Source: Acinetobacter sp. ANC 3813
GTDB taxonomy: Bacteria > Pseudomonadota > Gammaproteobacteria > Pseudomonadales > Moraxellaceae
DNA length: 64,000 nucleotides
Direction of reading: 5' to 3'
NCBI RefSeq assembly: GCF_002135435.1
Contig: NZ_NEGK01000001.1
Span: 372,001 to 436,000 of the forward strand
Part shown: piece after piece, positions 28,414 through 46,837 of the stretch
How positions within the stretch are numbered: position 1 is the first letter of the stretch
Layout of the letters: each line of letters starts with the position of its first letter
The notes under the pieces: model-generated
The model's input: only the letters and a program-made list of their open reading frames with translations
The model's database searches: none
What the model was told of the DNA's origin: nothing
Translations under genes and position numbers: made by a program

Positions 28414-29613
28414 TCAGAAACTGAATCCAATATTCAAGTTGACACGGTACATCCATTTTTCACTGTTTTCAGACGTCGCTGAGGTAAAGCCAGTGCCGTT
28501 GGTTGCGCCGCCGATAATATTGGCGTTTTTGCCCCATGTATAATCAGCCCAAACCATAAATGGCGAAGCAATAAACATCGCACCTGTGGTGTTCATTTGC
28601 GAGGCTGCCCAATCACTGCGCTCTTTGTCTAAATAGCTATAATCATTATAAAAACGGATCGCTTTCAATTTCCCCATATTCTGCACAGGCAAGGTATAAG
28701 CTAGGTTTAAACTCGCAACCGTTCCCTCAGAAGCAATGAAATACGATGGCGTTAAACCGTTCGCGCCCATCAGCGTCATATCGTTATTTACACCGTCTGG
28801 GTTTTCCACATCATATTGATAATGAATCACTGAAGACTGCAGATTCCAGCGCTGATAGTTGCTGTTGCTATGCAATCCAGCCGCATAGTAGCTGCCGTCT
28901 TTTTGCGTGGTTTTGTTGTGCAGCTGAGCCACAGAACCCGATAAGCCAATTTCATGCTTACCGATTTGATCATCGCCAAATTTACGCACAATGCGGGTAT
29001 TCAGCTGATTCTGCTTTTCATTTTGATAGGCCGCTTGGAAAGGCAAATGATTTTCTGAAAGATCATCATAGGTGGCAGCTTCTGGAGAATAACGCAAATT
29101 GGTTTCCAGCATGCGCGGATAATAACCGACTTTAATATCCCACTCAGGATTATTGTAATTCCAGTTCACCCCAGGCGCGGCATTGTTGCCATAACCTAAA
29201 AAGAATGGAATGTGGTACGTCCAGCCATTTTGCGGATAAGGATAAAGCGCAAAAGGCTTATAGACAAAACCTGCTTCGATGCTGTTGTTCTTGTTCAGGT
29301 TGTAGCCTACATAAGCCTTTTCAATGGAGGTTTTTTCCTGATCTTGCACAAGATAGCTGGCATTCAGATAGGCATCATCCGATTTGCCTTTTAAATCTAA
29401 ACGGAAAATATCAAAATCCAGCTTGCCAAAACCGCGGTTTGGACTGGCATCCCATTGTTCATAGCGGTGATTGAAACGCAGCACCCCACCGACTTTTAAT
29501 GAATGCGCCCCATCTTCACTTTTCCATTCCAATGGATCATCTTTGGCTTGAACACTAGCGGCAGCTGCGCCCAATGACATGAAAACCGCAGCTGTTAAAA
29601 TCGTTTTATTCAT
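28414..29613 (-). CDS. Outer-membrane porin of the IclR-associated island
   Basis: The 399-residue precursor has a clear signal peptide (about 1-23, ending VQAKD), a mature protein with many amphipathic strands rich in Tyr, Trp and Asn, and a C-terminal NLNIGFSF ending in Phe, as needed for barrel insertion. It resembles small-solute porins but I cannot assign it to a named subfamily. The candidate IclR operator (29634-29651) lies 20 bases before its start codon, so its expression is likely tied to the catabolic genes upstream; it probably admits their aromatic acid substrate. Confidence 0.85.
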   Translation of the reverse strand: MNKTILTAAVFMSLGAAAASVQAKDDPLEWKSEDGAHSLKVGGVLRFNHRYEQWDASPNRGFGKLDFDIFRLDLKGKSDDAYLNASYLVQDQEKTSIEKAYVGYNLNKNNSIEAGFVYKPFALYPYPQNGWTYHIPFFLGYGNNAAPGVNWNYNNPEWDIKVGYYPRMLETNLRYSPEAATYDDLSENHLPFQAAYQNEKQNQLNTRIVRKFGDDQIGKHEIGLSGSVAQLHNKTTQKDGSYYAAGLHSNSNYQRWNLQSSVIHYQYDVENPDGVNNDMTLMGANGLTPSYFIASEGTVASLNLAYTLPVQNMGKLKAIRFYNDYSYLDKERSDWAASQMNTTGAMFIASPFMVWADYTWGKNANIIGGATNGTGFTSATSENSEKWMYRVNLNIGFSF

Positions 29614-29921
29614 CTCTTTTCCCTAAAATCCCATGTTTTATATACAAAACATTGTTTGTTTCTCATTTTGGCTAAAAAAATTTAGCGCTGCGTCGCTGGC
29701 TGTTTTAAAAAACAGGCTGGCTGAACTTAAACGCCCTACATTCCTTGTAAGGATTTAAGTTTTGAGTCTTTTGGCATTTCCGCTTGGGCTGATTTAAACG
29801 CTGCACCAATGGCAACAATAATTGAATCAGCTCTAACGGCCCCCCATGCCTGAGGCAATCTCCCTGTTGGGAAATTGCCTTCTGGAATTGCTTCAAATAT
29901 GGTTCATCCTCTAAGGATGAA
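29614..29921. other. Intergenic stretch with operator and several hairpins
   Basis: Contains the candidate operator at 29634-29651 and several inverted repeats: AGGCAAT-TCCC with its partner (29855-29882, one mismatch), and TTCATCC / GGATGAA (29902-29919), directly after the ThDP gene stop region. An 82-codon open frame here lacks a plausible ribosome site and protein-like composition, so I do not call a gene. Confidence 0.5.
29634..29651. promoter_or_regulatory. Candidate IclR operator, porin copy
   Basis: TGTTTTATATACAAAACA is a near-perfect inverted repeat (TGTTTT / AAAACA). It matches the site at 42127-42144 in 16 of 18 positions, at the other end of the same island. Confidence 0.65.
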
Positions 29922-31562
29922 TTAGTACAATTTTTTCTGCGGTGGACCAGCAAATTTCAATGGGCCAATGGCGTTCATATCCAGTTCAATCACTGCTGGG
30001 CCATTCAAATCAATCGCTTCTTGAATTGCTGTTTTAAATTCGTCTGCACTGCCGACTTTCCAGCTCTTCACGCCCATCGACTCGCCCAATAAACAGTAGT
30101 CTGGCGTATGCAGTTCGTTAAAGTATTGACGGCCGCCAAAGTAATTATTTTGAATACCGCGCATGACGCCATAACCACCGTCGTTCATGACCATCAGCAC
30201 CATGTCGGTATTTTCTTGCGCCATGGTGGCAATCTCACCGATACCCAGCATCAAACCGCCATCACCCACTAGCCCAACGACTTTTTTGTCTGGGTTAGCA
30301 ATAGATGAACCAATCGCGTGTGCAAGACCAAGGCCAATTGCACCTGCCAATGAGTGAATGTTTTTATTTGGGGTTTGCACTGGGAACAAACGGCTGCCCC
30401 ATGTACTGCCTGACATAGTGATGTCGCGTACAAAAATACCGTCTTCTGGCAAAGCTGCACGCAAGTGATCACAAATCAATGCGTATTGATCCATTTGCGT
30501 ACGCAGTGCGTCTACTGCATGTTCACGTGCGGCTTTAATGTCTGCATCATAAGCGGCATCAATTTTGCTCACGCCATTTAAAGCGCTGAGTACACGTGCA
30601 AAAGTATCTTTGGTATCTGCACAGACAAATTGTGAAACCTTATAGTTACGCTGCTGCGCCACTGGGTTGGCATCAATTTGGATAATATTTTCAGGGAATT
30701 CTACTGAGTAAGTCTTGGTTTCATTACTGCGTAGACGTGAGCCTGCAACAATAAATAAATCCGCTTCTTTCATCAGTTTTTCAACGGCTGCAGAGTTATG
30801 GAATGCACGTAAGTTGCGCGGATGGTCATCAGCCAATACACCGCGTGCATGTGTAGAAGACACCACAGGAATACCCAAATCTGCAAGCGCTTTCACTTCT
30901 GCAACTGCATTTAACGTACCGCCACCAATCCAAAGTAGTGGACGCTTCGCCTTTTTCAATGCATCTGCAATCATGTCAATTTCAGCAACTTCCGCCTGCG
31001 GCAATTGCATGGCTTTTACTGGACCAAGATTGGCGGGCAAATCAATCTCAGCCGCTTGCACATCAATTGGAATTTCTACACTTACTGGACCCATAGGAAC
31101 AGTCGTCGCAACGCGGATTGCTTCACGAATTACACCGACAGCATTGTCTGGGCTGGTAATACGAAAAGCTGCTTTGCTCGATGCTTTTAAGAAAGTCAGC
31201 TGGTCTTTAGTTTCATGAATGAAGCTGGCATCGCGGTCTAAATATTCACGTTCCACTTGACCTGTTAAATGCAGCACTGGACTGCCAGCATTCATTGCTT
31301 CAATCAATGAACCTACGGCATTGCCTGCACCTGCGCCCGTACTGGTCAAGGCCACACCTAAGCCTTTAAAACGTGCATGTGCATCCGCCATGGTGACAGA
31401 ACCTGCTTCACCGCGCGCTGCAACAAAACGCATTTTTTCACGCCGGCCTACAGCATCAGCAATTGGCAAGTTGTGAATAGAAATCACGCCATACATGCTG
31501 TCTACATTGTGCTGTTCTAATACTCGAGCGATTGCTTCGCCTACATTTACACGTTCAGTCAT
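29922..31562 (-). CDS. Thiamine diphosphate-dependent enzyme (acetolactate synthase / benzoylformate decarboxylase family)
   Basis: Enzyme acting on 2-oxo acids, by decarboxylation or carboligation. The 546-residue protein has the three-domain layout: PYR domain with the activating Glu52 (AARGEAGSVTMAD), a central domain, and the PP domain with the metal motif GDGGLMLGIGEIAT near 436 and the distal Asn in MNDGGYG near 464. No small regulatory subunit lies nearby, which argues against biosynthetic acetolactate synthase. It follows the aldehyde dehydrogenase gene by 48 bases, so a 2-oxo acid to aldehyde to acid sequence is a reasonable guess. Confidence 0.85.
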   Translation of the reverse strand: MTERVNVGEAIARVLEQHNVDSMYGVISIHNLPIADAVGRREKMRFVAARGEAGSVTMADAHARFKGLGVALTSTGAGAGNAVGSLIEAMNAGSPVLHLTGQVEREYLDRDASFIHETKDQLTFLKASSKAAFRITSPDNAVGVIREAIRVATTVPMGPVSVEIPIDVQAAEIDLPANLGPVKAMQLPQAEVAEIDMIADALKKAKRPLLWIGGGTLNAVAEVKALADLGIPVVSSTHARGVLADDHPRNLRAFHNSAAVEKLMKEADLFIVAGSRLRSNETKTYSVEFPENIIQIDANPVAQQRNYKVSQFVCADTKDTFARVLSALNGVSKIDAAYDADIKAAREHAVDALRTQMDQYALICDHLRAALPEDGIFVRDITMSGSTWGSRLFPVQTPNKNIHSLAGAIGLGLAHAIGSSIANPDKKVVGLVGDGGLMLGIGEIATMAQENTDMVLMVMNDGGYGVMRGIQNNYFGGRQYFNELHTPDYCLLGESMGVKSWKVGSADEFKTAIQEAIDLNGPAVIELDMNAIGPLKFAGPPQKKLY

Positions 31563-31610
31563 TGTTCTTTCCTTAATTTTTTCAATTCGTTGTTTATGGG
31601 TGTTTAGCTG

Positions 31611-33086
31611 CTAGTCCGACCATGGATTGGCTTGCTCGTTTAAACCCAGATAAATACTTTTTTGCTGCATATACGACAGGATACCGAGGCGCCCTTTTTC
31701 ACGGCCAATACCGCTGTCTTTAAAGCCGCCAAATGGTGCGCTGATAGAGAATTTTTTATAGGTGTTGATCCACACTGTGCCCACTTCCAGCAAACGGGCA
31801 ATTTTCCATGCTTTACGGTAGCTTTCTGTCCAAATGCCTGCGGCTAAACCAAAACAGCTGTCATTGGCTTGTTCAAATAAGTCTTTTTCGTTGTCATATG
31901 GCATAACCACCAATACAGGGCCAAAAATTTCTTCTTGGCAGGTTTGCGCGCTATTGCTTAAACCCGTAATGATCGTGGGCTTGTAGAAACTGCCTTTGGC
32001 AAACTCGCCTTCTGTAATCGCCTCACCGCCAGTGACTACCGTACCGCCTTCAGCTTTGGCTAATTCCACATAACGGTGCACAGATTCCAAATGTTTTTGG
32101 TTAATCAATGAGCCCATATGCACATTTGGCTGTTCAGGATGCCCCACACGTAAACCTTCAGTGATCTCCACCAAACGTTTTAAGAAGCTGTCATAAATTG
32201 ACGTATGGATGAACAGACGCGAACCTGCAATACACGCCTGACCTGCCGAGCTGAAAATACCGTAAGCAATGCCTTTGGTTGCAATTTCAATATCTGCATC
32301 TGGCAGTACAATCGTTGGAGATTTACCACCTAACTCTAAAGATGTGGTAATCAGCTTTTCAGCGGCAATATGCGCCAAGTGGCGGCCAGTAGATGTACCG
32401 CCCGTAAACGAAATTTTGCGAACCAAAGGATGCTGTGCAATAGCATCGCCAATGACAGAACCACGTCCAACCAGTACACTCAAAATGCCTTTCGGCAAGC
32501 CTGCTTCTTCAAAGATTTTAGCCAGTTCTAAGGCAATTAATGACGTCGCTTCGGCAGGTTTTAAAATCACCGCGTTGCCTGCTGCAATGGCTGGCGCCAA
32601 TTTTTGCACTTCGCTGGCAATTGGAGAATTCCAAGGAGTAATGGCTGCTACCACACCCACTGGTTCATGCACGCTCATGGTCAAAAAATCTTGTGCACGT
32701 TGCGTAGTCAATTCTTCATTAAAAGTTTCGCATGCTGCTGCATTAAAGCGCGCAGTTGCTGCCGCGCTCATCACCAAAGCACGTGTTTCAGCTAAAGGCT
32801 TGCCGTTGTCACGCGTTTGTAATTTAGACAATTCATCTGCGCGGGCTTCAATAATGTCGGCTACGCGGTACAAAATTTTTGCGCGCTCATGCGGCAAAGA
32901 ATTGCGCCACTCTGGCTTACGCCAAGCTTGATCGGCCTTTGTAATCGCTTCTTCAACATCTTCCAAAGTTGCGGTTGAGATTTCCGCATTGACTGAATTG
33001 TCTGCTGGAAAAACGCTTTGAATCACGTTGCCGCGGCCTAAACGCCATTCACCTGCAATATAAATTTCTTTTACCATGACACTCAC
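31611..33086 (-). CDS. NAD(P)-dependent aldehyde dehydrogenase
   Basis: Oxidises an aldehyde to the acid. The 491-residue protein carries the family residues: Asn in ITPWNSPIAS near 154, the general base Glu in LELGGKSPTIV near 252, and the nucleophile Cys in FSSAGQACIAGSR near 287. It is a standard class, non-acylating enzyme by motif. The frame allows Met1 (33086) or Met4 (33077). It lies 9 bases after the aspartate dehydrogenase-like gene and 48 bases before the ThDP enzyme, as one operon. Confidence 0.9.
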   Translation of the reverse strand: MSVMVKEIYIAGEWRLGRGNVIQSVFPADNSVNAEISTATLEDVEEAITKADQAWRKPEWRNSLPHERAKILYRVADIIEARADELSKLQTRDNGKPLAETRALVMSAAATARFNAAACETFNEELTTQRAQDFLTMSVHEPVGVVAAITPWNSPIASEVQKLAPAIAAGNAVILKPAEATSLIALELAKIFEEAGLPKGILSVLVGRGSVIGDAIAQHPLVRKISFTGGTSTGRHLAHIAAEKLITTSLELGGKSPTIVLPDADIEIATKGIAYGIFSSAGQACIAGSRLFIHTSIYDSFLKRLVEITEGLRVGHPEQPNVHMGSLINQKHLESVHRYVELAKAEGGTVVTGGEAITEGEFAKGSFYKPTIITGLSNSAQTCQEEIFGPVLVVMPYDNEKDLFEQANDSCFGLAAGIWTESYRKAWKIARLLEVGTVWINTYKKFSISAPFGGFKDSGIGREKGRLGILSYMQQKSIYLGLNEQANPWSD

Positions 33087-33095
33087 CCAATCCCT

Positions 33096-33887
33096 TTAAA
33101 TCTGAATCGCATCTACGCTATTTCTGCACGCACGGATCACGCTCAATGCGGCCAATGTTGAAGTCTTTGGATTACTCTCCAAAGGCACTCCAATCATTTC
33201 AATACTCATTTGACCAAACCGCCCTTGGGCAATAATGGTATGTTTGTTTTGGCTGATGTTCGGATCAACCGTCAGTTCAACCATGGTTTCATCCATACCA
33301 ATGCCTGCCAGCGCAATGGTGGCCGCCACATTGGCATTGGCTGGAAAATTCAACGCAGCTTCACGTGCAGTTCCGGTATAAAAAACGGTTGCTTCAGTCA
33401 CTTGATCTAAATCAATCAGCTTTTCCGCATAACTGCCGCGCCAGCTATTTGGGCTTTTGCAGCCTTTATAAGTGACTTTTTCCAAACCGCCTTCTTTGGC
33501 AGCCGAAATACCGTCAATTCCTGCAATTGCGCCTGCCAGCAAATGAATATGCGCACCAGACTGCTCTGCTGTATTTTGCAGCTGTTCAAAGAAAGCGCTG
33601 TCAGCCAATGTGCCTACAGAGATCAAGCCAATGTTCCAGCCTTTTTCCAGCACTTTTGCAGCATGTTCTTTGACTGCTGCCTGACCTGCCACTTCAATCA
33701 CGTAGTCTGGTGTGCCGTCACAGTCATCAATATTGGCAATGACTTGAACATCGGCTGCCACTTCTTGCTGTACGTTTTGAATACTGCGCTCAGGCACCAC
33801 CACCCATTTCAGCTCAAGGTCTTTAGGCAAATGGCTACGGACTTCATTTGCCATTGCGCCAAAACCAATCATCATTAACTGTTTCAT
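33096..33887 (-). CDS. Aspartate dehydrogenase homologue (NadX/DUF108 type)
   Basis: The 263-residue protein has an N-terminal dinucleotide fold with IGFGAMANEV near residue 7, EVAGQAAVKEHA near 65, and a C-terminal dimerisation domain containing FPANANVAATIALAG near 183, all typical of L-aspartate dehydrogenases that make iminoaspartate or oxaloacetate. Homologues in catabolic operons may act on other amino or imino acids. No nadA or nadC is next to it, so NAD synthesis is unlikely. It sits 9 bases after the atypical SDR in the Rieske operon. Confidence 0.8.
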   Translation of the reverse strand: MKQLMMIGFGAMANEVRSHLPKDLELKWVVVPERSIQNVQQEVAADVQVIANIDDCDGTPDYVIEVAGQAAVKEHAAKVLEKGWNIGLISVGTLADSAFFEQLQNTAEQSGAHIHLLAGAIAGIDGISAAKEGGLEKVTYKGCKSPNSWRGSYAEKLIDLDQVTEATVFYTGTAREAALNFPANANVAATIALAGIGMDETMVELTVDPNISQNKHTIIAQGRFGQMSIEMIGVPLESNPKTSTLAALSVIRACRNSVDAIQI

Positions 33888-33896
33888 ACGCTCACC

Positions 33897-34691
33897 TTAT
33901 AAATGCTTGTTAAAGCCGCCAGACACATCAACCGCAGAGCCTGTGGTGTATGACGCCATTGGCGATGCCAAGAACACCAAAGCGCGCGCCGGCTCTTCAG
34001 GCTTGCCCAAACGTGCCATTGGAATACCGCGTTTTTTGGCAATATTGCCAATCCACTCTTCCCAGCTTTGGTTATGATCAGAACGGGCTGCAAAGCGGCG
34101 TTTCCACTGTGCAGATTCCACCATGCCCAATAAAATCGAGTTCACGCGGATGTTGTACTGAGAAAATTCATGCGCCAACGAATGGGTTAGATTCAGCAAT
34201 GCTGCCCGTGCAGATGAGGTCGCAATCATATGCGGCTCTGGCTGCAGCGCCAGCAAAGAATTGACATTGGTGATCGATGCACAAGCCGACTGCTGCAGCG
34301 CAGGCAAAAATGCGCGGATTGGATGCAGCACACTGAAATACTTCAGTTCAACTTCTTTAATCCAATCTTCATCCACTGTATTTTCAAAATTAGAAACACG
34401 GCCTTGGCCTGCGTTGTTAATTAAAATATCGACACCGCCAAATTCGCTATTCACTTGTTTAGCAAAGCGTTTAACATCCGCTTTGTCTAAAACATTACAA
34501 GTCGCAGTAAAAATTTTGGCATTTGGATAGCGCGATAAAATCAGCGCTTTAGATTCATTTAAACGCTGCTCATCACGGCCGCACCATGCCACAAGCGCGC
34601 CTTCCGCAACTAAGAGTTCTACCGTTGCCAGCCCAATGCCAGACGAGCCGCCGGTGACTACTGCTTTTTTTCCTTCTAATTGGAAGCTCAT
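33897..34691 (-). CDS. Atypical short-chain dehydrogenase lacking the YxxxK motif
   Basis: SDR fold of 264 residues: cofactor motif TGGSSGIG near residue 13, INNAGQG near 91, and a C-terminal family ending (YTTGSAVDVSGGF). The catalytic Ser is present (Ser145), but 13 residues later, where Tyr-x-x-x-Lys is expected, the sequence reads Thr158-Ser-Ser-Ala-Arg162. The protein therefore lacks the normal proton donor and lysine. It may bind cofactor without classical oxidoreduction, or use another residue. It lies between the alpha/beta hydrolase and the aspartate dehydrogenase homologue. Confidence 0.85.
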   Translation of the reverse strand: MSFQLEGKKAVVTGGSSGIGLATVELLVAEGALVAWCGRDEQRLNESKALILSRYPNAKIFTATCNVLDKADVKRFAKQVNSEFGGVDILINNAGQGRVSNFENTVDEDWIKEVELKYFSVLHPIRAFLPALQQSACASITNVNSLLALQPEPHMIATSSARAALLNLTHSLAHEFSQYNIRVNSILLGMVESAQWKRRFAARSDHNQSWEEWIGNIAKKRGIPMARLGKPEEPARALVFLASPMASYTTGSAVDVSGGFNKHL

Positions 34692-34712
34692 TTCCCTATC
34701 TCACATCAGTGC

Positions 34713-35546
34713 TTAATTAAGCGACAATAAAATTTGGTTGAATTGCTCTGCTTGGTCCAAATAACTTAAGTGGCCCGCAGCGGCAATGTCGTAACACGGC
34801 TTCAGCTGAAACTGATCTGCCAATGCTTGAATATCTTGTGGAGGCGTAATGCCGTCCGCCATGCCTTTAATCACATGAATATTGTGCTGTTCTGGATTTA
34901 AATAGCTTTGGATTGCGTCATAAGCCAACAGGTACGATGCATCACTAAAACCATCTAAATGAATGTTGTGCATCACCGCTTCAATCAGCGCTAGCGCCTC
35001 AGCTGAAGCATTGGCCACCAAATGCGGCCCGCGTGATTGCGCCATGCCAGATGCGCCCAGTGTTTGCAGCATTTTGGGACGCTTTTCAAAGACATCCTGC
35101 TGTTTCTGTGCATCACTGCCTTTGTAGCCTTGCGCCACATTAGCAATCACTAAAGCCTCTACAGCATCTGGATACAGCGCATTAAAAGCCGCAGCTTGCA
35201 TTGCACCTAAAGAATGCCCAACTAAAATAATTTGTTCTTGGCCCTGACCCGAACCTAAGTTCAGATCTAAAGCATCTAGCATGCCTTTTAAGCGTTTTGC
35301 ATAATCTGCTGCATTTGGCTTTGTAACTAAACGGTCCGACTGGCCATAGCCCGGCGCATCCCATGCAATGACATGAAAATGATGACTTAAATCTTGCAGC
35401 TGCTTGACCCAAGAACCCGAGCCAGAACTGATGCCATGCAGCAACACCAGAACTTTTCCTGTACCCGCTTCGCGGTAAGATTGCTGCACGCCGTCAAACT
35501 GAATCATTTTCAATTCAAACTGCGCCAATTGCTCGATTAAAGTCAT
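34713..35546 (-). CDS. Alpha/beta hydrolase
   Basis: Serine hydrolase of 277 residues with LLHGISSGSGSW (oxyanion loop near residue 35), the nucleophile GHSLGAMQ near 118, an acid in GMADGITPP near 235 and the histidine in AAGHLSYLDQ near 258. In an operon with an extradiol dioxygenase, the simplest role is hydrolysis of a ring-fission product, although the GHSLG elbow differs from the GNSxGG elbow of typical meta-cleavage hydrolases such as the one at 23717-24613. An ester or enol-lactone substrate is also possible. Confidence 0.85.
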   Translation of the reverse strand: MTLIEQLAQFELKMIQFDGVQQSYREAGTGKVLVLLHGISSGSGSWVKQLQDLSHHFHVIAWDAPGYGQSDRLVTKPNAADYAKRLKGMLDALDLNLGSGQGQEQIILVGHSLGAMQAAAFNALYPDAVEALVIANVAQGYKGSDAQKQQDVFEKRPKMLQTLGASGMAQSRGPHLVANASAEALALIEAVMHNIHLDGFSDASYLLAYDAIQSYLNPEQHNIHVIKGMADGITPPQDIQALADQFQLKPCYDIAAAGHLSYLDQAEQFNQILLSLN

Positions 35547-35563
35547 CTCTTTACTTCCTAAAA

Positions 35564-36085
35564 TTAACGCTTGATTTGAGACAGCGGATGCTCAGGTGGA
35601 TAGTTCGGAATGGTCGGCTTACCCGTACCGAGCATTACGCACATCAAGGCATCTTCAGTACCAGGGTTAAATAGGCCGCGGTAAATGCCCGGCGGAATTG
35701 AAATCAAATCACGCTCTTTTAAACGGGTTGAATATTCTTGGCCGTCGTGTTCAATGAACAGGTCAATTTCACCGCGCAGCATAAAGAACACTTCTTCTAC
35801 ATCGTGATGAATATGCAGCGGGCCTTCACATTGCGGCGGCAGCACCATCGTAGAAAAGGTAAAGTTTTCTGCAGGAACGGTATTGCCATCATTTGCTACA
35901 CCCGTTGCGCCTGTACCCATATAACGCATCTGTGCGCGGCGGTATTTCGGGTCGTAATCCGCTTGGAATTTAAGTGCATCAAAATCATATTGACGCGTTT
36001 CAAAGCGCGCGATGCGTCCACCAATCCAGTCTTCCAATGATTGGCCTTCAGGCTGTGTCCAAGATTCAAATTGTTGTACAGACAT
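35564..36085 (-). CDS. Cupin-domain protein
   Basis: A 173-residue single cupin. Motif 1 is in GPLHIHHDVEEVFFMLRGEID near 90-110 (His, His, Glu pattern) and motif 2 in PPGIYRGLFNPG near 130, though the motif 2 histidine is missing. It could be a small metal enzyme (dioxygenase or isomerase) or a ligand-binding protein. It follows the MFS gene by 116 bases and precedes the hydrolase by 17 bases. Exact function not identified. Confidence 0.75.
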   Translation of the reverse strand: MSVQQFESWTQPEGQSLEDWIGGRIARFETRQYDFDALKFQADYDPKYRRAQMRYMGTGATGVANDGNTVPAENFTFSTMVLPPQCEGPLHIHHDVEEVFFMLRGEIDLFIEHDGQEYSTRLKERDLISIPPGIYRGLFNPGTEDALMCVMLGTGKPTIPNYPPEHPLSQIKR

Positions 36086-36201: not shown

Positions 36202-37425
36202 TCAGTAGCGTTTCAGCAATGGCGCCAAGAAGAAGGAACCAATCACGGCCACCGCAGCCAAGAAAGTAATGCCGATATTAAAACTGCCGGTTTGCATCAC
36301 AATTGCGCCGATAATCACAGGCGCTGCTGCGCTGGCAAAGTTGCCCAAGCCATTGAAAATGCCGCCTGCGGTTGCGCCGACATCTGCTGTGGTAATACGC
36401 GCCAGCAAAGCAAACACCGCTGCGACACCAAAACCCCAAGCCATTGCGCTGAGCGACATCGCCAAAATCACCAGCATTGGATTGGTCGCAATGACCATCA
36501 CGTACATGAAAATACCTGCGACCAATAAACCGCCGCTGACTTGAATCGCACGCTTGCCTATCTTGTCGGAAAGGAATGCGCCAGCCACTTCACCAATCAG
36601 CATGGCTATGAACGGCAAGCTTGAGTAAATACCGAACTCTTTCAAGTTGAAACCTTTGTCCTGAATCAGGTACGAAGGCACCCAGCTATTCAAGCCCCAC
36701 AGGTAAGTCATCAACGCGATATTGAACACACACAGCAACCAAAATGCGCTGTTGCTGAACAATGCTTTGGTATTGCTCAAATGCGTACTGAAATTCACGC
36801 GCTTGCCCACACCTTCTAAATCCACAGTACGTTTCAGCTGTAAATTGCGTAGGCCAAAGACAATTAAACCCAGTACGACAAACGTCATTGCACCCATCAC
36901 AAAGAAGGTGGTGTGCCAGTCATAGTGCGCTAGGACGAATGCGGTAATAGGAAAACCTAAGAATGCGCCAATCGGTGTGCCCAATAAAAACATGGTTGAT
37001 GCACGCGCTTGCTGACGGTCTGTGTAAGTTTGTTTCACAATGGTATAGGCCAAGGCGAATAAAGGACCTTCTGCCAAACCAAGCAGTACACGGAGTGTTA
37101 ACATCGCTGAATAATCTGTGGTGAAGCCCATCAGAATCATCAGCATTCCCCAAGAGCTCACACTCCAGAACAGCATCTTTTTAGGACAAAAAATGTCGCC
37201 TAAAAAGCTTAAAAACATTGATGAAAAGCCATAAGCCAACAGGAAACTGGTCATCAGCCAGCCCAGTTTGGCCTTGTCTTGTCCAATGCCCATCGCATTC
37301 TGAAAAGTCGCGTCAGAAAACAATACGGCAATACTGATTTTGTCAAAGAAAGCCAGCACCACGCAGATCATTAAAATGATTGCCGGTGTCCAATGCTTAA
37401 ACCCTGTTTTTGCACCACTATCCAT
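36202..37425 (-). CDS. MFS transporter, anion:cation symporter type
   Basis: Inner-membrane importer of 407 residues with 12 predicted membrane segments. The region RVLLGLAEGPLFALAYTIVK near 110-130 and the loop FLGDIFCPKKMLFW near 73 are typical of the anion:cation symporter family, which takes up organic acids such as aromatic carboxylates, tartrate and galactonate. Its position inside the Rieske operon suggests that it imports the pathway's substrate, which would then be an acid. Confidence 0.88.
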   Translation of the reverse strand: MDSGAKTGFKHWTPAIILMICVVLAFFDKISIAVLFSDATFQNAMGIGQDKAKLGWLMTSFLLAYGFSSMFLSFLGDIFCPKKMLFWSVSSWGMLMILMGFTTDYSAMLTLRVLLGLAEGPLFALAYTIVKQTYTDRQQARASTMFLLGTPIGAFLGFPITAFVLAHYDWHTTFFVMGAMTFVVLGLIVFGLRNLQLKRTVDLEGVGKRVNFSTHLSNTKALFSNSAFWLLCVFNIALMTYLWGLNSWVPSYLIQDKGFNLKEFGIYSSLPFIAMLIGEVAGAFLSDKIGKRAIQVSGGLLVAGIFMYVMVIATNPMLVILAMSLSAMAWGFGVAAVFALLARITTADVGATAGGIFNGLGNFASAAAPVIIGAIVMQTGSFNIGITFLAAVAVIGSFFLAPLLKRY

Positions 37426-37469
37426 GGGTAAATCCTTTATTACATGGTCTAATATTTGGGTTAAAACAA

Positions 37470-38678
37470 TTACTTAAGCTTCATTAGATTAAAGTCAGGA
37501 TCTTGCAATTGAGCTGGATCCAACTCACGGCTGCTGGCCATCCAACGTTTTGCCAGTTTCACCAGTTTTGAGTCATTGACTGCAATCATGTTGAGCAGTT
37601 GATTGTGTTCATCCAAATAAAAAAACGTTATTTGCAAATCTGAAGTTTTACGAATCACCACCTGATGTGTTTTTTCAGGTTGATAAGTGCCTAAAATTTG
37701 AATGTTGCATTGATATTGATCTGACCATAACCAAGGAATATCTTGATAAGCAGTCATGTCCCCAAGCATGGATTTGGCAGCCGCGATCGCCTGATTTTGC
37801 GCATTGGCCCAAGACTGGATGCAATAGCCCAAATTGGGGTGAATCGCTACATCGCCCGCAGCATAAATATCTGCATCGGATGTTTGGCCAAATTCATTTA
37901 CCACAATGCCATCTTTAACTTCGAGTTCAGCTAAAGCAGCCAATTCCTTTGCAATTTCCGCACCTGCACCCACCACCACACAATCAAACTGCTTTAATTT
38001 TATGTCTGCATCAAAAACTTCGACTTTCTGATCAGCTGTTTCGATCAAATGCAGCTTGGTGGCATTGAGATGAATGGCCGTGCCTGCATCTTCATGCAAT
38101 TGCTTTAAATAATCTGAGACTTCAGGACTCACACTGCGTGCGCAAAGACGTGAGCCGTATTCAAAAATTTCAACCTGCTTGCCCTGCTTGCGTGCAGTGG
38201 CTGCAATTTCAAGACCAATCCAGCCGCCGCCAATCACTGCAATATGCTCTGCTGACTTAAATTTTTCAGCCAATTTTTGGCAGTCTTTAATGTCACGCAT
38301 GGTGTAAACGTTGTGCATGCTGGACCATGCAGAAACAGGAACGCGTGCTCGGCTGCCCGTGGCAATCAGCAACTTGTCATATGCCAGCACTTTGCCGCTT
38401 TCCAAATGCACGGTTTTATCCGCTTTATCCAATTTGACCGCATGGTCTGGCTTATGCCATGTCACTGAAAAATCATTGACCTGATCTGCAGAAAATAAAT
38501 TTAGGCTTTCAACTGCCGCTTCCTGCGACAATACTTGCTTAGACAATGGCGGACGCTCATAAAAGACTTGATCTTCATTGGATACCACATGAATTTCACC
38601 GCCAAAACCTTGACCGCGCAGCGTATGCACTGCCCAGCCAGCGGCCTGCCCTGCACCCACAATTACAATCCTGTCCAT
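37470..38678 (-). CDS. Ferredoxin reductase of a Rieske oxygenase system
   Basis: FAD- and NAD(P)H-dependent reductase that passes electrons to the Rieske ferredoxin. The 402-residue protein has an FAD motif VGAGQAAGWAVHTL near residue 6, the conserved ERPPLSK near 42, an NAD motif IGGGWIGLEIAATARKQG near 154, and the late FAD motif IYAAGDVA near 275, as in toluene/biphenyl dioxygenase reductases. With the ferredoxin (41807-42112) and oxygenase (40402-41466) it completes a three-component system within one operon. Confidence 0.92.
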   Translation of the reverse strand: MDRIVIVGAGQAAGWAVHTLRGQGFGGEIHVVSNEDQVFYERPPLSKQVLSQEAAVESLNLFSADQVNDFSVTWHKPDHAVKLDKADKTVHLESGKVLAYDKLLIATGSRARVPVSAWSSMHNVYTMRDIKDCQKLAEKFKSAEHIAVIGGGWIGLEIAATARKQGKQVEIFEYGSRLCARSVSPEVSDYLKQLHEDAGTAIHLNATKLHLIETADQKVEVFDADIKLKQFDCVVVGAGAEIAKELAALAELEVKDGIVVNEFGQTSDADIYAAGDVAIHPNLGYCIQSWANAQNQAIAAAKSMLGDMTAYQDIPWLWSDQYQCNIQILGTYQPEKTHQVVIRKTSDLQITFFYLDEHNQLLNMIAVNDSKLVKLAKRWMASSRELDPAQLQDPDFNLMKLK

Positions 38679-38704
38679 GCTGATCTCCTTATCCTGATTG
38701 GACT

Positions 38705-39634
38705 TTAAGCGGGTTTGACCTGACGGCGGGTTTCATGATCTAAACCGCCTTCAATTGCCCACTCCGTAAACAGCTCCAAGCTGTGTTCTTCTTCACGCGG
38801 CTGCCATTCTTCTGTCAGGTAATCATCATTGGTGTAGTACTCAAAAGCACCGCCCAATGGCGAGTTGACATACCAGAAATACGCCGATGAAATCGGGTGG
38901 CGGCCCGGACCAATAAAGGTTGACCAGTCTTGACGGTTCATGCTCAAACCGCCGCCAATCACTTCATGAATATCACGCACCACAAAAGCTACATGGTTTA
39001 AGCCAGCAGGCTTATTCGGAATAGACAGCAGGAATAAATCATGGTGGAAACCTTCACCGCGGCAGCGTAAAAATGCACCGCGCTTTCGGTAAGCATCTGA
39101 CAAATGAAAGCCAATTTTTTCAATATAAAACGCTTGCGTGGCTTCCAAATCTGGCGTGAAAAACACCACATGGCCAATATCGACAGGCTCAGCTTTTTCA
39201 TACACTGGGCTGGCTGCGTTCACACGCTGAATATTGCCAAATTGGTTGATGCCTTCGGTTTTTGCTGCAGGAAGCTCATGTGTAATGCTTTTTTCAAACA
39301 CAATGGTCATGCCATTAGGATCGCGGCACTGCACATGTGAAGTCGAGCTGGCAAAACCTGCTTCATTGGCTAAACTTGCTTTTAACTGTTCAAAGTCTTG
39401 TTCATTTTCAACACCCCATGTCACTTCACGCAGTGTTGAACCTGCTTCAATCGCTGGCGGCAAGCGCGCATCTGCAATATCAAACAGGTAAATTTTGCTG
39501 CCATTTTGGGTCTGATATAAATCTGTAGCATCAATATCTGAATCAACAGCTTTTAAGCCAAAATCAGTTAAAAAAGTATTCGCCTCTTGGCGGTTTTCGA
39601 CACCAAATTTAAGGACTTCAATTCCTGTAATCAT
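38705..39634 (-). CDS. Extradiol dioxygenase of the VOC superfamily
   Basis: Two-module VOC protein; I place the start at the ATG at 39634, which has an AAGGAG site, giving 309 residues. Likely Fe(II) ligands are His155 (DIGHVVFF), His214 (GLNHVAFVV) and Glu265 (GGAFEYY). The architecture matches catechol 2,3-dioxygenase-type enzymes, and it probably cleaves the catechol formed by the Rieske oxygenase and SDR encoded just upstream. It is only distantly similar to the extradiol enzyme at 22727-23713, so the two islands handle different substrates. Confidence 0.88.
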   Translation of the reverse strand: MITGIEVLKFGVENRQEANTFLTDFGLKAVDSDIDATDLYQTQNGSKIYLFDIADARLPPAIEAGSTLREVTWGVENEQDFEQLKASLANEAGFASSTSHVQCRDPNGMTIVFEKSITHELPAAKTEGINQFGNIQRVNAASPVYEKAEPVDIGHVVFFTPDLEATQAFYIEKIGFHLSDAYRKRGAFLRCRGEGFHHDLFLLSIPNKPAGLNHVAFVVRDIHEVIGGGLSMNRQDWSTFIGPGRHPISSAYFWYVNSPLGGAFEYYTNDDYLTEEWQPREEEHSLELFTEWAIEGGLDHETRRQVKPA

Positions 39635-39644
39635 GTCGTGCTCC

Positions 39645-40409
39645 TTAATTAAATACAAAACCGCCGTTCACAGGAATATTCTGTCCAGTCACAAAAGAAG
39701 ATAAATCTGAAAGCAGATAAATCGCTGTGCCGTTTACATCCTGTGGAAGCTGCTGACGCTGTATTGCTCTTCCATTGACATACAAATCATGACGCGACTG
39801 AGGTACATATTCTGTGGCTTCAACCAAGGTCAACCCTGGACTGATGGTATTGACACAAATATTGTCTGGACCTAATTCAGTTGCCATGGAACGGGTCATC
39901 GAGATAATTGCACCTTTGCTGGCCACATAAGCCATCAACTTCGGTGCGCCCCATAAAGCAGTGTCTGATGCAATATTGATAATTTTGCCCTGACCTGAAG
40001 CTTTTAAATGCGGCACGCAAGCTTGAGAAACCAGCCATGTACCTTTGACATTGACCGTCATTACTCGGTCCCAAAGCGCTTCGTCATAGCCCATCATGTC
40101 CACACCGCCTACGCCTGTAGCTAAGGCAGCACAGTTAATTAGACCGTCTAAACCACCAAGGGCTTCAACAGCAGTTTGCACCGCATGTTGAATAGACTGT
40201 TTTTGACTTAAATCGATACTGACGGCAGATACCTGAAAACCTGCATGCGCTAACTTTTCAGCTTCTGACTGCACCAAATCCGTCAAAATATCTGCCATGA
40301 CCACCGCAGCGCCAGCTTCTGCAGCCGCTTGAGCAAAATCGCGCCCAAGGCCTCGCGCTGCACCAGTCACTAAAATGCGCTTGCCCGCTAAAATCTGTAG
40401 GCTAGCCAT
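39645..40409 (-). CDS. Short-chain dehydrogenase, candidate dihydrodiol dehydrogenase
   Basis: NAD-dependent SDR of 254 residues with TGAARGLG near residue 15, the catalytic Ser in INIASDTALWG near 140, and an intact YVASK near 155. It overlaps the Rieske oxygenase gene by 8 bases, so it is translationally coupled to it; in such operons this enzyme usually restores aromaticity by oxidising a cis-dihydrodiol. A role as an alcohol dehydrogenase on a side chain cannot be excluded. Confidence 0.88.
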   Translation of the reverse strand: MASLQILAGKRILVTGAARGLGRDFAQAAAEAGAAVVMADILTDLVQSEAEKLAHAGFQVSAVSIDLSQKQSIQHAVQTAVEALGGLDGLINCAALATGVGGVDMMGYDEALWDRVMTVNVKGTWLVSQACVPHLKASGQGKIINIASDTALWGAPKLMAYVASKGAIISMTRSMATELGPDNICVNTISPGLTLVEATEYVPQSRHDLYVNGRAIQRQQLPQDVNGTAIYLLSDLSSFVTGQNIPVNGGFVFN

Positions 40410-41466
40410 TGGCAGTTTCCTTCATATCAATACGGTTTGAATCTTGCGCACCGCGTAATGCCGTAATTTTCTTAATCTGCTTTTCCGCTTCTTTTTTCAT
40501 TAAGCGGCGTAAGCGTGAAAGCCCGACATCGTGCTGATAAAGAAATTCATGCTGACGCGCATTTGGCGCCATGTTTTCAAGAATAATGCGGTCTTGCTCC
40601 AACACATCCCAATGTAATTGCTCAAGATGGTTGCGGTACAAGAAGCGCCATACATTACGTTGCCAGCCAGAGACTTTACGGCAGCGCCAGAAAAATACGC
40701 GGGTGTTATTGGCATCAATCGGTGTTGCAAAACCGACAATCCAGAACTCGCCGCCCGGACCAAATGACTTACGGTAAGGAATAGATAAACGCAGCCACGC
40801 AGCACCTGTTTGACCGTATTCAACCCAGTCAAAGTTCACACCCGTCTGGCCTTCTTTTTCAAAAACAAAGCCATCTTTAGTAGCACGATGCTTCATTTCT
40901 GCCGTGCGTTCACCGTCTGCCATAGAGTGCGATGTGCAATGCAGGTATGTGCCGTGCATTGGGTCCATCACGTTATCAATGGCATATTGATGGTTCACTT
41001 TCCAATCTGCCATGCAAAGGAATGAACTCCACTCCTCAGTTGCAAGCTGATCCGGCAAAACCAGTTCTGCAGGCGCTTCTGCATCATCAATACCAAACCA
41101 AATGAAGATCGCATCATTCAGTTCTTTCACTTGATAAGACTTCACACAGTCACTGCCTTTAAGCGGGCAATCATGTACCGCTGGCACATCTTCCACTACG
41201 CCGTCATGACGCACTTCTACACCGTGATACCAGCACGCTACGCGGTTACCCAGATTCCAGCCTAAAGATAAACGTGCACCGCGGTGCGGACAGCGGTCTT
41301 CCAAGGCATGTACAGCGCCTTGCTCATCACGCCATACCACAATATTTTCGCCTAAGCGGGTAATGCCGACTGGATTTGAACCCACTTCCCAGCTGGCCAA
41401 TACTGGATACCATTGATCACGCAGACCAAGATCCAAATATTGTTCTAAATTAATTTCTGTCGTCAT
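40402..41466 (-). CDS. Rieske non-heme iron oxygenase, catalytic subunit
   Basis: Oxygenase that hydroxylates or demethylates an aromatic substrate. The 354-residue protein has the Rieske [2Fe-2S] ligands Cys59, His61 (CPHRGARLS) and Cys78, His81 (CWYHGVEV) and the mononuclear iron motif NVMDPMHGTYLH (His171, His176, with Asp168 nearby). The length and single subunit (no small beta subunit gene) point to the phthalate/vanillate-demethylase branch, not the biphenyl branch. Electrons come from the ferredoxin and reductase encoded in the same operon. Confidence 0.93.
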   Translation of the reverse strand: MTTEINLEQYLDLGLRDQWYPVLASWEVGSNPVGITRLGENIVVWRDEQGAVHALEDRCPHRGARLSLGWNLGNRVACWYHGVEVRHDGVVEDVPAVHDCPLKGSDCVKSYQVKELNDAIFIWFGIDDAEAPAELVLPDQLATEEWSSFLCMADWKVNHQYAIDNVMDPMHGTYLHCTSHSMADGERTAEMKHRATKDGFVFEKEGQTGVNFDWVEYGQTGAAWLRLSIPYRKSFGPGGEFWIVGFATPIDANNTRVFFWRCRKVSGWQRNVWRFLYRNHLEQLHWDVLEQDRIILENMAPNARQHEFLYQHDVGLSRLRRLMKKEAEKQIKKITALRGAQDSNRIDMKETANG

Positions 41467-41481
41467 GATGAAATCCTTTTC

Positions 41482-41781
41482 TTAGTAGCCTAGACGCTGC
41501 ATCTCTTTCGAGAAGCTTTCAGCGGTCCATACATCACCCGCTACCGTTCTAAACCCTTGCTGATTCAGCGCTTCGGTTAATGCATCCAGTTCAGTCACAT
41601 CATTACTGAAGGCTTGAATTAAATGCTGTACAAAGTCCAGTTCGTACTGGCTCGGTGCTCGGCTGCGGTTCTGCCAAACTAGGTGCTCAACATCTCCAGG
41701 GATTTGAATATTGTTGATACCTGCTTCGGTCGAAGGCGTTGCATTGATCCATCTCGCGAGCTTTTCATTAAATTCTTTCAT
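41482..41781 (-). CDS. Small protein with a recombinase-like helix-turn-helix
   Basis: A 99-residue protein between the Rieske ferredoxin and the oxygenase. The C-terminal part (about 65-99, with LTEALNQQGFRTVAGDVW) resembles the helix-turn-helix found after the catalytic domain of large serine recombinases, but there is no recombinase domain. Similar small proteins accompany some Rieske oxygenase genes. It could be an accessory or regulatory protein; the function is unknown. Spacings of 15 and 25 bases to its neighbours support co-transcription. Confidence 0.75.
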   Translation of the reverse strand: MKEFNEKLARWINATPSTEAGINNIQIPGDVEHLVWQNRSRAPSQYELDFVQHLIQAFSNDVTELDALTEALNQQGFRTVAGDVWTAESFSKEMQRLGY

Positions 41782-41806
41782 GTGAATATTTCCTTTGCTT
41801 CACTGC

Positions 41807-42112
41807 TTAGAGCTGAATTTGAACTTCTCCGTTCTCAACTCTGACAGGGTAAGTGCACAAATCTCTGCACCCTGGACCGCTTTCTAAAGCGCCCGTTTCC
41901 AAATTGAAAATTGCTTCGTGCAGCGGGCATTCAACTGTGAGTCCTTCAATGAAGCCTTCAGTCAACAATGCATATGCATGCGGGCAGACATTTTCAACAG
42001 CGAAATAATTTTCCTCGATCACAAAGACACCAATCTTTTTGTCGTCAACCTCAATCGCTTTAGGTTCTTCCTCAGCGACTTCGTTCACCTTGCAAACAGA
42101 TATCCAGTTCAT
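41807..42112 (-). CDS. Rieske-type ferredoxin
   Basis: A 101-residue [2Fe-2S] carrier with ligands Cys43 and His45 (CPHAYALL) and Cys62 and His65 (CPLHEAIF), typical of the ferredoxin component of three-component oxygenases. It is the first gene of the operon and starts 15 bases downstream of the candidate IclR operator at 42127-42144. Confidence 0.93.
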   Translation of the reverse strand: MNWISVCKVNEVAEEEPKAIEVDDKKIGVFVIEENYFAVENVCPHAYALLTEGFIEGLTVECPLHEAIFNLETGALESGPGCRDLCTYPVRVENGEVQIQL

Positions 42113-42126
42113 GTGCTCATCTTCCG

Positions 42127-42144
42127 TGTTTTATATGTAAAACA
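42127..42144. promoter_or_regulatory. Candidate IclR operator, Rieske operon copy
   Basis: TGTTTTATATGTAAAACA is an inverted repeat (TGTTTTA / TAAAACA, 4-base spacer). It is 16/18 identical to the porin-side site at 29634-29651. A weaker version, TTATTTATATACGAAACA, lies at 42273-42290, closer to the divergent regulator gene. Confidence 0.7.
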
Positions 42145-42240
42145 TAATTTGATATTTAAAACATTAATAATAGAATAATACCTGACCAATTTAGTTGTCA
42201 ATTTTTATATAACTTTAAAATTCAATAACTTATTAAAATT

Positions 42241-42258
42241 AAACATTTTGAAATGTTT
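42241..42258. promoter_or_regulatory. Second palindrome in the regulator-Rieske intergenic region
   Basis: AAACATTT and AAATGTTT flank TG, a perfect 8-2-8 inverted repeat located between the strong operator and the weaker copy at 42273-42290. It shares the AAACA core with those sites and may be part of a multi-site operator. Confidence 0.4.
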
Positions 42259-42377
42259 TAAATGCGAAATATTTATTTATATACGAAACATTGTGATATT
42301 AAAAATACCCCGTTAAAATAGGCATAGATCTTCTCAAGCGAGGAGATAAATCAGCATAAATACAGGTTAGCTTGGCA

Positions 42378-43196
42378 ATGAATTCCACAACTACAGATGC
42401 CCTATTGGAGCAGGAAACTGACTCTAATAATGATGAGCGTTATTTAGTACCCGGTTTGGTACGCGGCTTAGCCATATTAAAATTATTTGATCAAAGCAAT
42501 CAGGAAATGACCATTTCTGAAATTGCAGAAAAAATTGACGTGAACCGTTCCAGCGCATTCCGATTGATTCATACATTGGAGCATTGCGGATACTTAAGAA
42601 AAATGTCGCAAAAAACCTTTGCGCTGAACAGCAATGTGATGGAATTGGGCTATAACAGTCTATCTAAATCATCTTTAACGGAACTGGCCGCACCAATCAT
42701 GCGCAATCTGCGCGACCAGATTAAAATTGCGGTGCATCTCTCTATCTTGGAAGGCACAGATATTGTTTTTATCAGCAATGTGCAGTCTATTGGGCCATTC
42801 ACCAGCAATGTACATATCGGCACGCGCTGGCATGCGCATGCAACCGTTATTGGGCAATTAATCCTGTCGCGCCTGCCTGAGGCGGAAGTGATTCAGCGCT
42901 ATGAAAACTTTACAGACTGGAAGGTCTATTCAGAACGCACACCGCGAGACATCAAATCACTGCTGGCGCGTTTAAATGAGGTGCGTAAGCAGCCCTTCAT
43001 GGTGAGCTGGGGGCATTTTAATACCGACATGGCTGCCTGCGCTGCGCCTATTTACAGCCAAGCCAGCGGTGATGTAACGGCTGTGCTGTCCGTCAGCTGT
43101 CCTTTAAGCACTTATACAGAAGACGAGTTTAGAGGCGAAATCGCGCAGAACGTCATTGAATATGCGAACCAAATTTCTAAATTTATTTATATTTGA
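42378..43196 (+). CDS. IclR-family transcriptional regulator of the Rieske island
   Basis: The 272-residue protein (from ATG 42378; a TTG at 42372 is in frame) has the N-terminal winged helix (about residues 22-85: GLAILKLF, MTISEIAEKIDVNRSSAFRL) and the C-terminal IclR ligand domain (about 95-260). It is divergent from the Rieske ferredoxin gene, the usual arrangement for a pathway-specific IclR regulator such as PobR or PcaU. The inverted repeats between the two genes and before the porin are its likely targets. Confidence 0.92.
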   Translation: MNSTTTDALLEQETDSNNDERYLVPGLVRGLAILKLFDQSNQEMTISEIAEKIDVNRSSAFRLIHTLEHCGYLRKMSQKTFALNSNVMELGYNSLSKSSLTELAAPIMRNLRDQIKIAVHLSILEGTDIVFISNVQSIGPFTSNVHIGTRWHAHATVIGQLILSRLPEAEVIQRYENFTDWKVYSERTPRDIKSLLARLNEVRKQPFMVSWGHFNTDMAACAAPIYSQASGDVTAVLSVSCPLSTYTEDEFRGEIAQNVIEYANQISKFIYI

Positions 43197-46836: not shown

Positions 46837-46837
46837 A

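Follow-up and report, generated by a model that had tools for sequence, protein, structure and literature searches.

A conserved Acinetobacter operon with a predicted role in the import and aerobic catabolism of kynurenic acid

Bacterial breakdown of kynurenate (kynurenic acid, 4-hydroxyquinoline-2-carboxylate) was reportedly described enzymatically by the Hayaishi group in 1961 and 1963, in papers cited by PMC11354673 and PMC5610271. The route is said to pass through a 7,8-dihydrodiol and 7,8-dihydroxykynurenate and to continue by extradiol cleavage, decarboxylation of the oxoacid and oxidation of the aldehyde, with no aldolase. Its picolinate intermediates are reportedly the 5-(3-carboxy-3-oxopropenyl)-, the corresponding -oxopropyl-, the 5-(2-formylethyl)- and finally the 5-(2-carboxyethyl)-4,6-dihydroxypicolinate. 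Three enzymes of kynurenate breakdown carry EC numbers, namely kynurenate 7,8-hydroxylase (EC 1.14.99.2), the dihydrodiol dehydrogenase (1.3.1.18) and 7,8-dihydroxykynurenate 8,8a-dioxygenase (1.13.11.10). Here we describe a thirteen-gene operon of Acinetobacter sp. ANC 3813, found within positions 28414-43196 of a 64,000-nucleotide stretch of DNA (the window). The reactions we predict for it agree with the Hayaishi-group pathway in order and kind. Whereas that pathway is enzymatic and we found no gene assignment for it, the operon supplies genes with predicted reactions and a proposed end in aspartate.

Classical meta-cleavage pathways continue from ring cleavage with a hydratase and an aldolase. 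The operon shares the upper part of such a pathway, with a Rieske oxygenase, a short-chain dehydrogenase/reductase (SDR) and an extradiol dioxygenase, but its lower part consists of a thiamin diphosphate (ThDP) decarboxylase, a plain aldehyde dehydrogenase, a cupin, a hydrolase and an aspartate dehydrogenase. The initial annotation of this DNA had read the set as hydroxylation of a ring and its meta cleavage, with the usual hydratase, aldolase and acylating aldehyde dehydrogenase absent, and a Pfam scan of the 15 genes in 28414-43196 indeed found none of the three. The same annotation held that the enzyme set fits no textbook pathway. Here we differ, because the set fits the Hayaishi-group pathway, in which the oxoacid is reportedly decarboxylated and oxidised instead of being passed to an aldolase. 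The operon does not represent a new category of system; it would provide the genes behind a pathway already known from enzymology. At the gene level it does appear to be undescribed, as had been proposed. Among the open-literature matches listed (titles and abstract openings, with the subscription literature mostly outside), there was neither a gene assignment for bacterial kynurenate degradation nor a published operon of this content with an assigned substrate.

The Lum cluster of Nocardioides simplex, which acts on the N-heteroaromatic lumichrome (vitamin B2), shares with the operon a Rieske dioxygenase, an extradiol dioxygenase and a thiamin-dependent decarboxylase (PMC12746152). It differs in having alpha and beta oxygenase subunits, a P450, an amidase and xanthine-oxidase-type steps. 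Its thiamin enzyme decarboxylates a heterocycle, and the available part of the paper does not mention an aspartate dehydrogenase (PMC12746152). The Pfam scan found no Lum-type beta subunit, P450 or amidase domain among the 15 genes.

The operon and its predicted pathway

The operon is real, conserved and intact. Its thirteen genes run compactly on the minus strand from 42112 to 29922, the Rieske ferredoxin first and the ThDP enzyme last, with intergenic gaps of -8 to 116 bases. A divergent gene encodes an IclR-family regulator (42372..43196, plus strand; PF09339, PF01614; TTG start as listed), under whose control the operon would stand; IclR genes adjoin or sit inside many homologous clusters. 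On the minus strand, 308 bases past the end of the run, lies the gene of a possibly associated outer-membrane porin (28414..29613; no Pfam match). All genes named in the initial annotation are present as open frames with the expected Pfam domains, the porin excepted, and two further genes went unnamed in its finding, those of a 99-residue HTH_62 protein and an alpha/beta hydrolase. Promoter and terminator scans stayed at chance level (20 versus 25.0 and 19 versus 18.0).

We consider it probable that the operon serves to import kynurenic acid, or a very closely related compound, and to break it down aerobically. Kynurenate is the best-supported substrate because it explains the post-cleavage enzymes and the aspartate dehydrogenase together. 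We infer the substrate and every reaction, above all the ring-opening steps and the one given to the second SDR, from gene content, residues, conservation and neighbours. The residue counts that follow come from alignments of 129-153 homologues per protein.

The acid would be taken up by a major facilitator superfamily (MFS) importer (36202..37425; PF07690, 159 bits) and the porin (step 1). Kynurenate would then be converted to its 7,8-dihydrodiol by the three-component Rieske oxygenase that the initial annotation had already recognised (step 2). The components are a Rieske-type ferredoxin (41807..42112; PF00355, 75.6 bits), a reductase dependent on flavin adenine dinucleotide (FAD) (37470..38678; PF07992, PF14759) and the alpha component, a predicted kynurenate 7,8-dioxygenase (40402..41466; PF00355, PF19112). 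The best NCBIfam match of the ferredoxin is AndAb at 96.7 bits, under the cut-off of 150, and it barely passes the NirD model (74.9 versus 74.65). At family level, the oxygenase is present with its own electron transport and intact CxH/CxxH Rieske residues, and C59, H61, C78 and H81 are found in 153/153 homologues. Its nearest solved sequences are a putative phthalate oxygenase and carbazole oxygenases, and 2-oxoquinoline 8-monooxygenase is also among the 22 matches. A point absent from the earlier work is that no gene in the operon encodes an oxygenase beta subunit; the alpha component stands alone. The HTH_62 protein (41482..41781; PF20552, 84 bits) is possibly an accessory protein or an unrecognised small subunit of this beta-less oxygenase. 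The C-terminal helical part of its AlphaFold model is confident, and the best PDB match has an E value of 3.0.

The first SDR, SDR1 (39645..40409; PF13561), a predicted cis-dihydrodiol dehydrogenase, would rearomatise the dihydrodiol to 7,8-dihydroxykynurenate (step 3). A type I extradiol dioxygenase of the VOC type (38705..39634; PF00903), the predicted 7,8-dihydroxykynurenate 8,8a-dioxygenase, would cut the 8,8a bond and leave a dihydroxypicolinate ring that bears a 3-carboxy-3-oxopropenyl side chain (step 4). Both enzymes are intact, as had been stated for the SDR. SDR1 keeps Y161 and K165 in 153/153 homologues, an assignment at family level, and the metal triad H156, H215 and E266 of the dioxygenase is kept in 151-152 of 152, with one gap at Glu. 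The triad is numbered on the 310-residue frame, +1 relative to the ATG at 39634, which we favour over the listed TTG. The nearest solved structure to the dioxygenase is homoprotocatechuate 2,3-dioxygenase. A Rieske oxygenase followed by a dihydrodiol dehydrogenase and then an extradiol enzyme yields a ring-cleaved 2-oxo acid. A second extradiol relative, 39% identical to the operon enzyme, is encoded elsewhere in the 3.86-Mb genome of the window (G000:C15:184811-185692).

The side-chain double bond would be reduced next (step 5), and by elimination the candidate ene reductase is the atypical SDR2 (33897..34691; NF005468, 444 bits against a cut-off of 266). It lacks the classical YxxxK motif and has T158 and R162 at the places of the catalytic Tyr and Lys. 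The initial annotation had noted the missing Tyr and Lys; with Thr and Arg at these places in 151/151 homologues, the loss of Tyr and Lys is a conserved trait and no sign of decay. The same swap is seen in 3lf1 (Q9HYA2; 260 residues aligned, 320 bits), the solved structure nearest to SDR2, for which the hit list gives no function. We take Q9HYA2 to be a short chain oxidoreductase of Pseudomonas aeruginosa, in which the cluster presumably bears the gene numbers PA3504-PA3511; no paper was found under those numbers in the open literature.

For the post-cleavage steps the operon encodes a 2-oxo-acid decarboxylase together with a plain aldehyde dehydrogenase, the ThDP Glu and the aldehyde dehydrogenase Cys being intact; both assignments are at family level. 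The ThDP-dependent enzyme (29922..31562; PF02775, PF00205, PF02776; NF005470, 856 bits against a cut-off of 495) keeps its catalytic E52 in 129/129 homologues and would decarboxylate the 2-oxo acid (step 6). The aldehyde dehydrogenase (31611..33086; PF00171, 566 bits; GTG start as listed) keeps its catalytic C285 in 151/151 and is predicted to act on the formylethyl intermediate, yielding 5-(2-carboxyethyl)-4,6-dihydroxypicolinate (step 7). In their available parts, metabolomics papers name this compound with a 5-(2'-carboxyethyl) group, its 5-(3'-carboxy-3'-oxopropyl) relative and 7,8-dihydroxykynurenate (PMC11364965, PMC10543884, PMC12007202).

The cupin and the alpha/beta hydrolase would then open the remaining ring, a lactam, and split C4-C5, releasing iminosuccinate (tautomer aminofumarate) together with a C5 diacid whose formula corresponds to glutarate (step 8). 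The cupin (35564..36085; PF07883) keeps H91, H93, E97, E98 and R136 in 150/150 homologues and is a candidate for opening the pyridine ring. Its model (mean predicted local distance difference test score 69.5) resembles many small metal cupins in fold and indicates no particular reaction. The hydrolase (34713..35546; PF00561) keeps S112 and H259 in 152/152 homologues and matches the PcaD, HsaD and BphD models, in each case under the cut-off; it is a candidate for amide hydrolysis or for C-C (retro-Claisen) hydrolysis.

Finally, the imine would be trapped as L-aspartate (step 9) by the product of 33096..33887 (PF01958, PF03447), which by its domains, conserved His and curated cut-off is an L-aspartate dehydrogenase (iminosuccinate reductase) homologue. 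It scores 437 bits with NF009828 (cut-off 177), has the solved relative 2dc1 and keeps H216, presumably the catalytic His, in 151/151 homologues. The skeleton of iminosuccinate equals the N1-C2(COOH)-C3-C4 unit of kynurenate, which would explain why an aspartate dehydrogenase should be here. The enzyme is nearly as constant as the oxygenase across the 156 loci compared below (151 versus 153). The RidA family hydrolyses enamines and imines, and a RidA gene (PF01042) lies inside or beside the cluster in 20/156 loci. An aspartate-yielding end of the pathway, as we propose it, would be new.

L-aspartate dehydrogenases of Klebsiella pneumoniae 34618 and Delftia belong to the same family as the operon enzyme, and with pyruvate or 2-oxoglutarate they reach at most 3.9% relative to oxaloacetate (PMC5554190). 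As far as the available text goes, that study treats them as stand-alone biocatalysts; published activity data concern homologues only. The Klebsiella and Ralstonia eutropha enzymes share 42% identity (PMC5554190), and the cluster enzymes of two genomes (G299, G371) and of four genomes of one genus, g71, are 43-45% identical.

Conservation of the gene set

A search for the same gene set in other genomes, as the initial annotation had proposed, recovered at least 10 of the 13 genes in 124/156 loci. These have the order of the window in 78 cases and another order in 46, a few of which may stem from the starts of open reading frames. The 156 loci comprise 43 from Acinetobacter, 37 other contigs, 44 from family f20, 20 from family f2 including genome G963, seven on plasmids, three from f11 and two from f14. 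From named plasmids f20 appears to be Burkholderiaceae, and f2 appears to be Pseudomonadaceae (Pseudomonas-type). In the species collection, 509 stretches fit the search pattern and 486 encode an oxygenase relative, the best 80 of which were used. The f20 genomes were picked by genus out of 129 carriers, and the f2 sample holds 19 of 21 SDR2 carriers (G1241 and G1267 left out) plus G963. The loci are partly non-independent: G639 and the plasmid locus L158 are the same record, and the oxygenase C-termini of L046 and L048 are identical.

Each of the 13 genes is found in 43/43 Acinetobacter loci, which were retrieved by the oxygenase alone; the grouping is not due to chance. Acinetobacter baylyi (L056), a harmless and easily transformed species, has the set, though its stretch stops partway through the ThDP gene. 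Among the best 80 of 486, the named species with the closest oxygenase is Acinetobacter amyesii (94%). These 80 span Acinetobacter, Psychrobacter, Ignatzschineria, Zobellella, Aeromonas, Marinobacterium, Neisseriaceae, Paenalcaligenes, Serratia, Providencia and Paraburkholderia, and nearly all keep the gene order of the window, L100 being an exception. The ThDP gene is seen in only 12/37 of the other contigs, probably because of the stretch limit, as several end just past the aldehyde dehydrogenase gene (for example L083 and L090). The related porin is found in 9/156 loci (8/20 Pseudomonas-type loci and A. apis); the 21-kb Acinetobacter loci stop within the ThDP gene, L021 and L056 among them, so that the porin position lies outside their view.

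More distant clusters are reshuffled at the edges. The f20 loci have the reductase in 19/44, the ferredoxin in 18/44 and the MFS gene in 0/44, and the f2 set with G963 has them in 1/20, 1/20 and 0/20; at the loci inspected, a VanB-type reductase or an ABC transporter stands in. The oxygenase, SDR1, extradiol dioxygenase, cupin, hydrolase, SDR2, ThDP enzyme, aspartate dehydrogenase and aldehyde dehydrogenase are each kept in 42-44/44 f20 and 19-20/20 f2 loci. A set retained through such reshuffling is the pattern that one pathway would leave. The HTH_62 gene occurs in 43/43 Acinetobacter loci, 36/37 other contigs, 38/44 f20 and 5/7 plasmid loci, and in only 2/20 Pseudomonas-type loci, where so short a protein could be overlooked. 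Two alphaproteobacterial clusters have genes for flavodoxin-domain and pentapeptide-repeat proteins after the FAD reductase (L161:24482-25548, L162:24561-25627).

Within the window's family, the oxygenase is found in 21/149 genomes, its own included (E <= 1e-60). SDR2 is present in 21/348 genomes of f2 (E <= 1e-80) and the extradiol gene in 129/249 of f20 (E <= 1e-60). In an even draw over the phylum, 13/397 genomes, again including its own, have an extradiol relative (E <= 1e-40). Two of these relatives are only 34-37% identical, and their genomes (G170, 37%; G538, 34%) were not counted as carriers; the stretch seen of G170 holds no relatives of the oxygenase, ThDP enzyme, aspartate dehydrogenase or cupin.

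Neighbouring genes and alternative substrates

The initial annotation had suggested an acidic aromatic substrate, possibly containing nitrogen, and we consider such a substrate probable. On plasmid pNK84 of Caballeronia NK8, genes for a three-subunit molybdenum hydroxylase and an SRPBCC protein lie directly downstream of a ferredoxin-HTH_62-oxygenase-ThDP-VOC group. Large subunits of such hydroxylases are found within 20 kb of the cluster in 12/44 f20 genomes, against 3.05 expected from whole-genome counts; four are pNK84-like and eight of another type. A simulation of this linkage gave P ~4e-5, which assumes independence and overstates the significance. The hydroxylase could make kynurenate from quinaldate, which its sequence does not itself say. 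An FAD monooxygenase of the NicC/salicylate type lies beside the cluster in 33/156 loci (12/44 f20, 11/20 f2 with G963, 6/43 Acinetobacter, 2/3 f11 and 2/7 plasmids; 0/37 other contigs and 0/2 f14). Among solved proteins it is closest to tropone 2-monooxygenase and 6-hydroxynicotinate 3-monooxygenase, and by hydroxylating xanthurenate it could arrive at the same 7,8-diol. In G963, whose first 20 kb show the monooxygenase with the Rieske gene beyond, we considered whether it replaces the oxygenase. Since a Rieske gene of 67% identity follows ~2 kb past the monooxygenase, at a distance of 10 kb from the VOC gene, the monooxygenase is an additional gene.

Some 5 kb from the IclR gene, both Marinobacterium loci carry a member of the tryptophan 2,3-dioxygenase family (PF03301, 332-334 bits). 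Tryptophan dioxygenase was found in 18/40 genomes and kynureninase above its cut-off in 16/40, all but G170 and G538 having been chosen for the cluster or the oxygenase. Where the contig of the cluster is known, these genes lie on other contigs or far off, Marinobacterium excepted. Overall, the neighbours back kynurenate moderately. Some suggest an N-heterocyclic acid, and no neighbour family proves the substrate; we rejected them as proof of an N-heterocycle, since benzoate-type nearest models and scores under cut-offs tell against it.

Several of these and other observations weigh against kynurenate. It is a prediction from genes, and SDR2 is given its step by elimination. The molybdenum linkage is nearly confined to g71 (11/12 there versus 1/32 elsewhere), so that the cases behind it depend on one another. 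For the pNK84 subunit, 4-hydroxybenzoyl-CoA reductase is the closest match, 6-hydroxypseudooxynicotine dehydrogenase and carbon monoxide dehydrogenase come next, and quinoline 2-oxidoreductase is only fourth; the other subunit type passes no NCBIfam cut-off. The best NCBIfam model of the monooxygenase is 3-hydroxybenzoate 6-monooxygenase, itself under the cut-off. In the Marinobacterium locus L078 the tryptophan dioxygenase scores 172 bits, against an NCBI model cut-off of 391, and a kynureninase-like pyridoxal phosphate gene, adjacent to the dioxygenase gene in one of the two loci, is a weak C-terminal match under the kynureninase cut-offs. Among the stretches examined, tryptophan dioxygenase is near the cluster in only 2/37 other contigs. 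The window holds no close relative of the monooxygenase, the molybdenum hydroxylases, RidA or tryptophan dioxygenase, and its genome lacks the last of these altogether; kynurenate would then be imported, which is consistent with the MFS gene. Glutarate as the C5 product is doubtful. A succinate-glutarate CoA-transferase homologue is missing in 6/18 cluster-bearing genomes (A. apis, three Ignatzschineria, an Aeromonas and G371), and the cut-off for that enzyme was passed in 0/22 genomes searched, four of them cluster-less. A CoA transferase and an acyl-CoA dehydrogenase encoded next to the Pseudosulfitobacter cluster were dropped as a glutarate pair, the dehydrogenase being nearest to short-chain acyl-CoA dehydrogenases and both scoring under curated cut-offs.

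More tentatively, the operon may belong to a general quinoline-2-carboxylate route in which quinaldate, kynurenate and xanthurenate meet at 7,8-dihydroxykynurenate. Quinaldate would enter by the molybdenum hydroxylase, kynurenate by the Rieske oxygenase and SDR1, and xanthurenate by the FAD monooxygenase, and an undescribed lower pathway would bring the ring nitrogen into L-aspartate via iminosuccinate released by retro-Claisen cleavage. That quinaldate or xanthurenate is itself the main substrate, with the same chemistry and the same meeting point, strikes us as unlikely. The molybdenum hydroxylases and the monooxygenase do adjoin some clusters, and in G963 a sulfatase accompanies the monooxygenase. 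However, in the stretches examined the monooxygenase is absent from the window, from 37/43 Acinetobacter loci and from 37/37 other contigs, and no relative of the two molybdenum subunits occurs in L021-L100. The Rieske oxygenase and SDR1 are kept where those genes are lacking, and the input in the window is likely the Rieske substrate itself. The G963 sulfatase (L262:13973-15586) lies between TRAP-type transporter genes and the cluster, and would fit a sulfated aromatic substrate. Somewhat less likely again is another N-heteroaromatic acid, outside the kynurenate group, degraded to an imine that the aspartate dehydrogenase handles. That enzyme and RidA favour an imine or enamine intermediate and do not name the compound, but by our reasoning no other fused heteroaromatic acid was found that jointly explains cleavage, decarboxylation, aldehyde oxidation and iminosuccinate.

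We regard as improbable an N-free aromatic acid degraded by meta cleavage, with the aspartate dehydrogenase serving redox or carbon balance only. Enzymes for the N-free compounds phthalate, dicamba and steroids are among the solved relatives of the oxygenase, homoprotocatechuate 2,3-dioxygenase is the one closest to the extradiol enzyme, and the linked monooxygenase and molybdenum enzymes have benzoate-type nearest models. Against this stand the constancy of the aspartate dehydrogenase, close to that of the oxygenase, and the recurrence of RidA next to the cluster. It is very improbable that the operon detoxifies or silences a quinoline-type signal instead of supporting growth, given that the importer, the complete electron transport and the full run of carbon-recovering enzymes point to nutrition. 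In favour of such a role, several carriers among the best 80 of 486 are host-associated by their record titles. In A. baumannii, mucin raises A1S_0956-A1S_0958, annotated as aspartate dehydrogenase, betaine-aldehyde dehydrogenase and acetolactate synthase large subunit, with values of 2.18-2.43 in the available part of the report (PMC5757984); from the matching names and order, we infer that these genes belong to this cluster. Kynurenate or a very close relative is the substrate that we prefer.

Surroundings and significance

A second catabolic group, at 18932-28289, adjoins the operon and looks like a separate meta-cleavage pathway. It encodes a TetR-like regulator, an SDR, an FAD monooxygenase, an extradiol-type VOC protein, an alpha/beta hydrolase, an FAA hydrolase, an amidohydrolase and an outer-membrane protein, the regulator, SDR and outer-membrane protein being identified by eye. 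Three consecutive genes at 14890-18778 encode a 4-hydroxyphenylpyruvate dioxygenase, an amino-acid permease (by eye) and a class I aminotransferase, the last of which might in principle accept kynurenine. On the other side, 45208-57528 holds genes for a TonB receptor, a decarboxylase, an isochorismatase-like protein (by eye), an AMP-ligase and free-standing condensation domains, which suggests a catechol-polyamine siderophore locus.

Kynurenic acid is a neuroactive and immune-active metabolite of tryptophan and, according to the sources in their available parts, occurs in intestine, urine and honey. If our prediction is true, the cluster gives sequences for the orphan enzymes of the 1961-1963 kynurenate enzymology. 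It would also be a marker for kynurenate-degrading bacteria, judging by the share of f20 genomes with the extradiol gene and of genomes in the window's own family with the oxygenase. The aspartate dehydrogenase, so far known mainly as a biocatalyst, would gain a role in these organisms.

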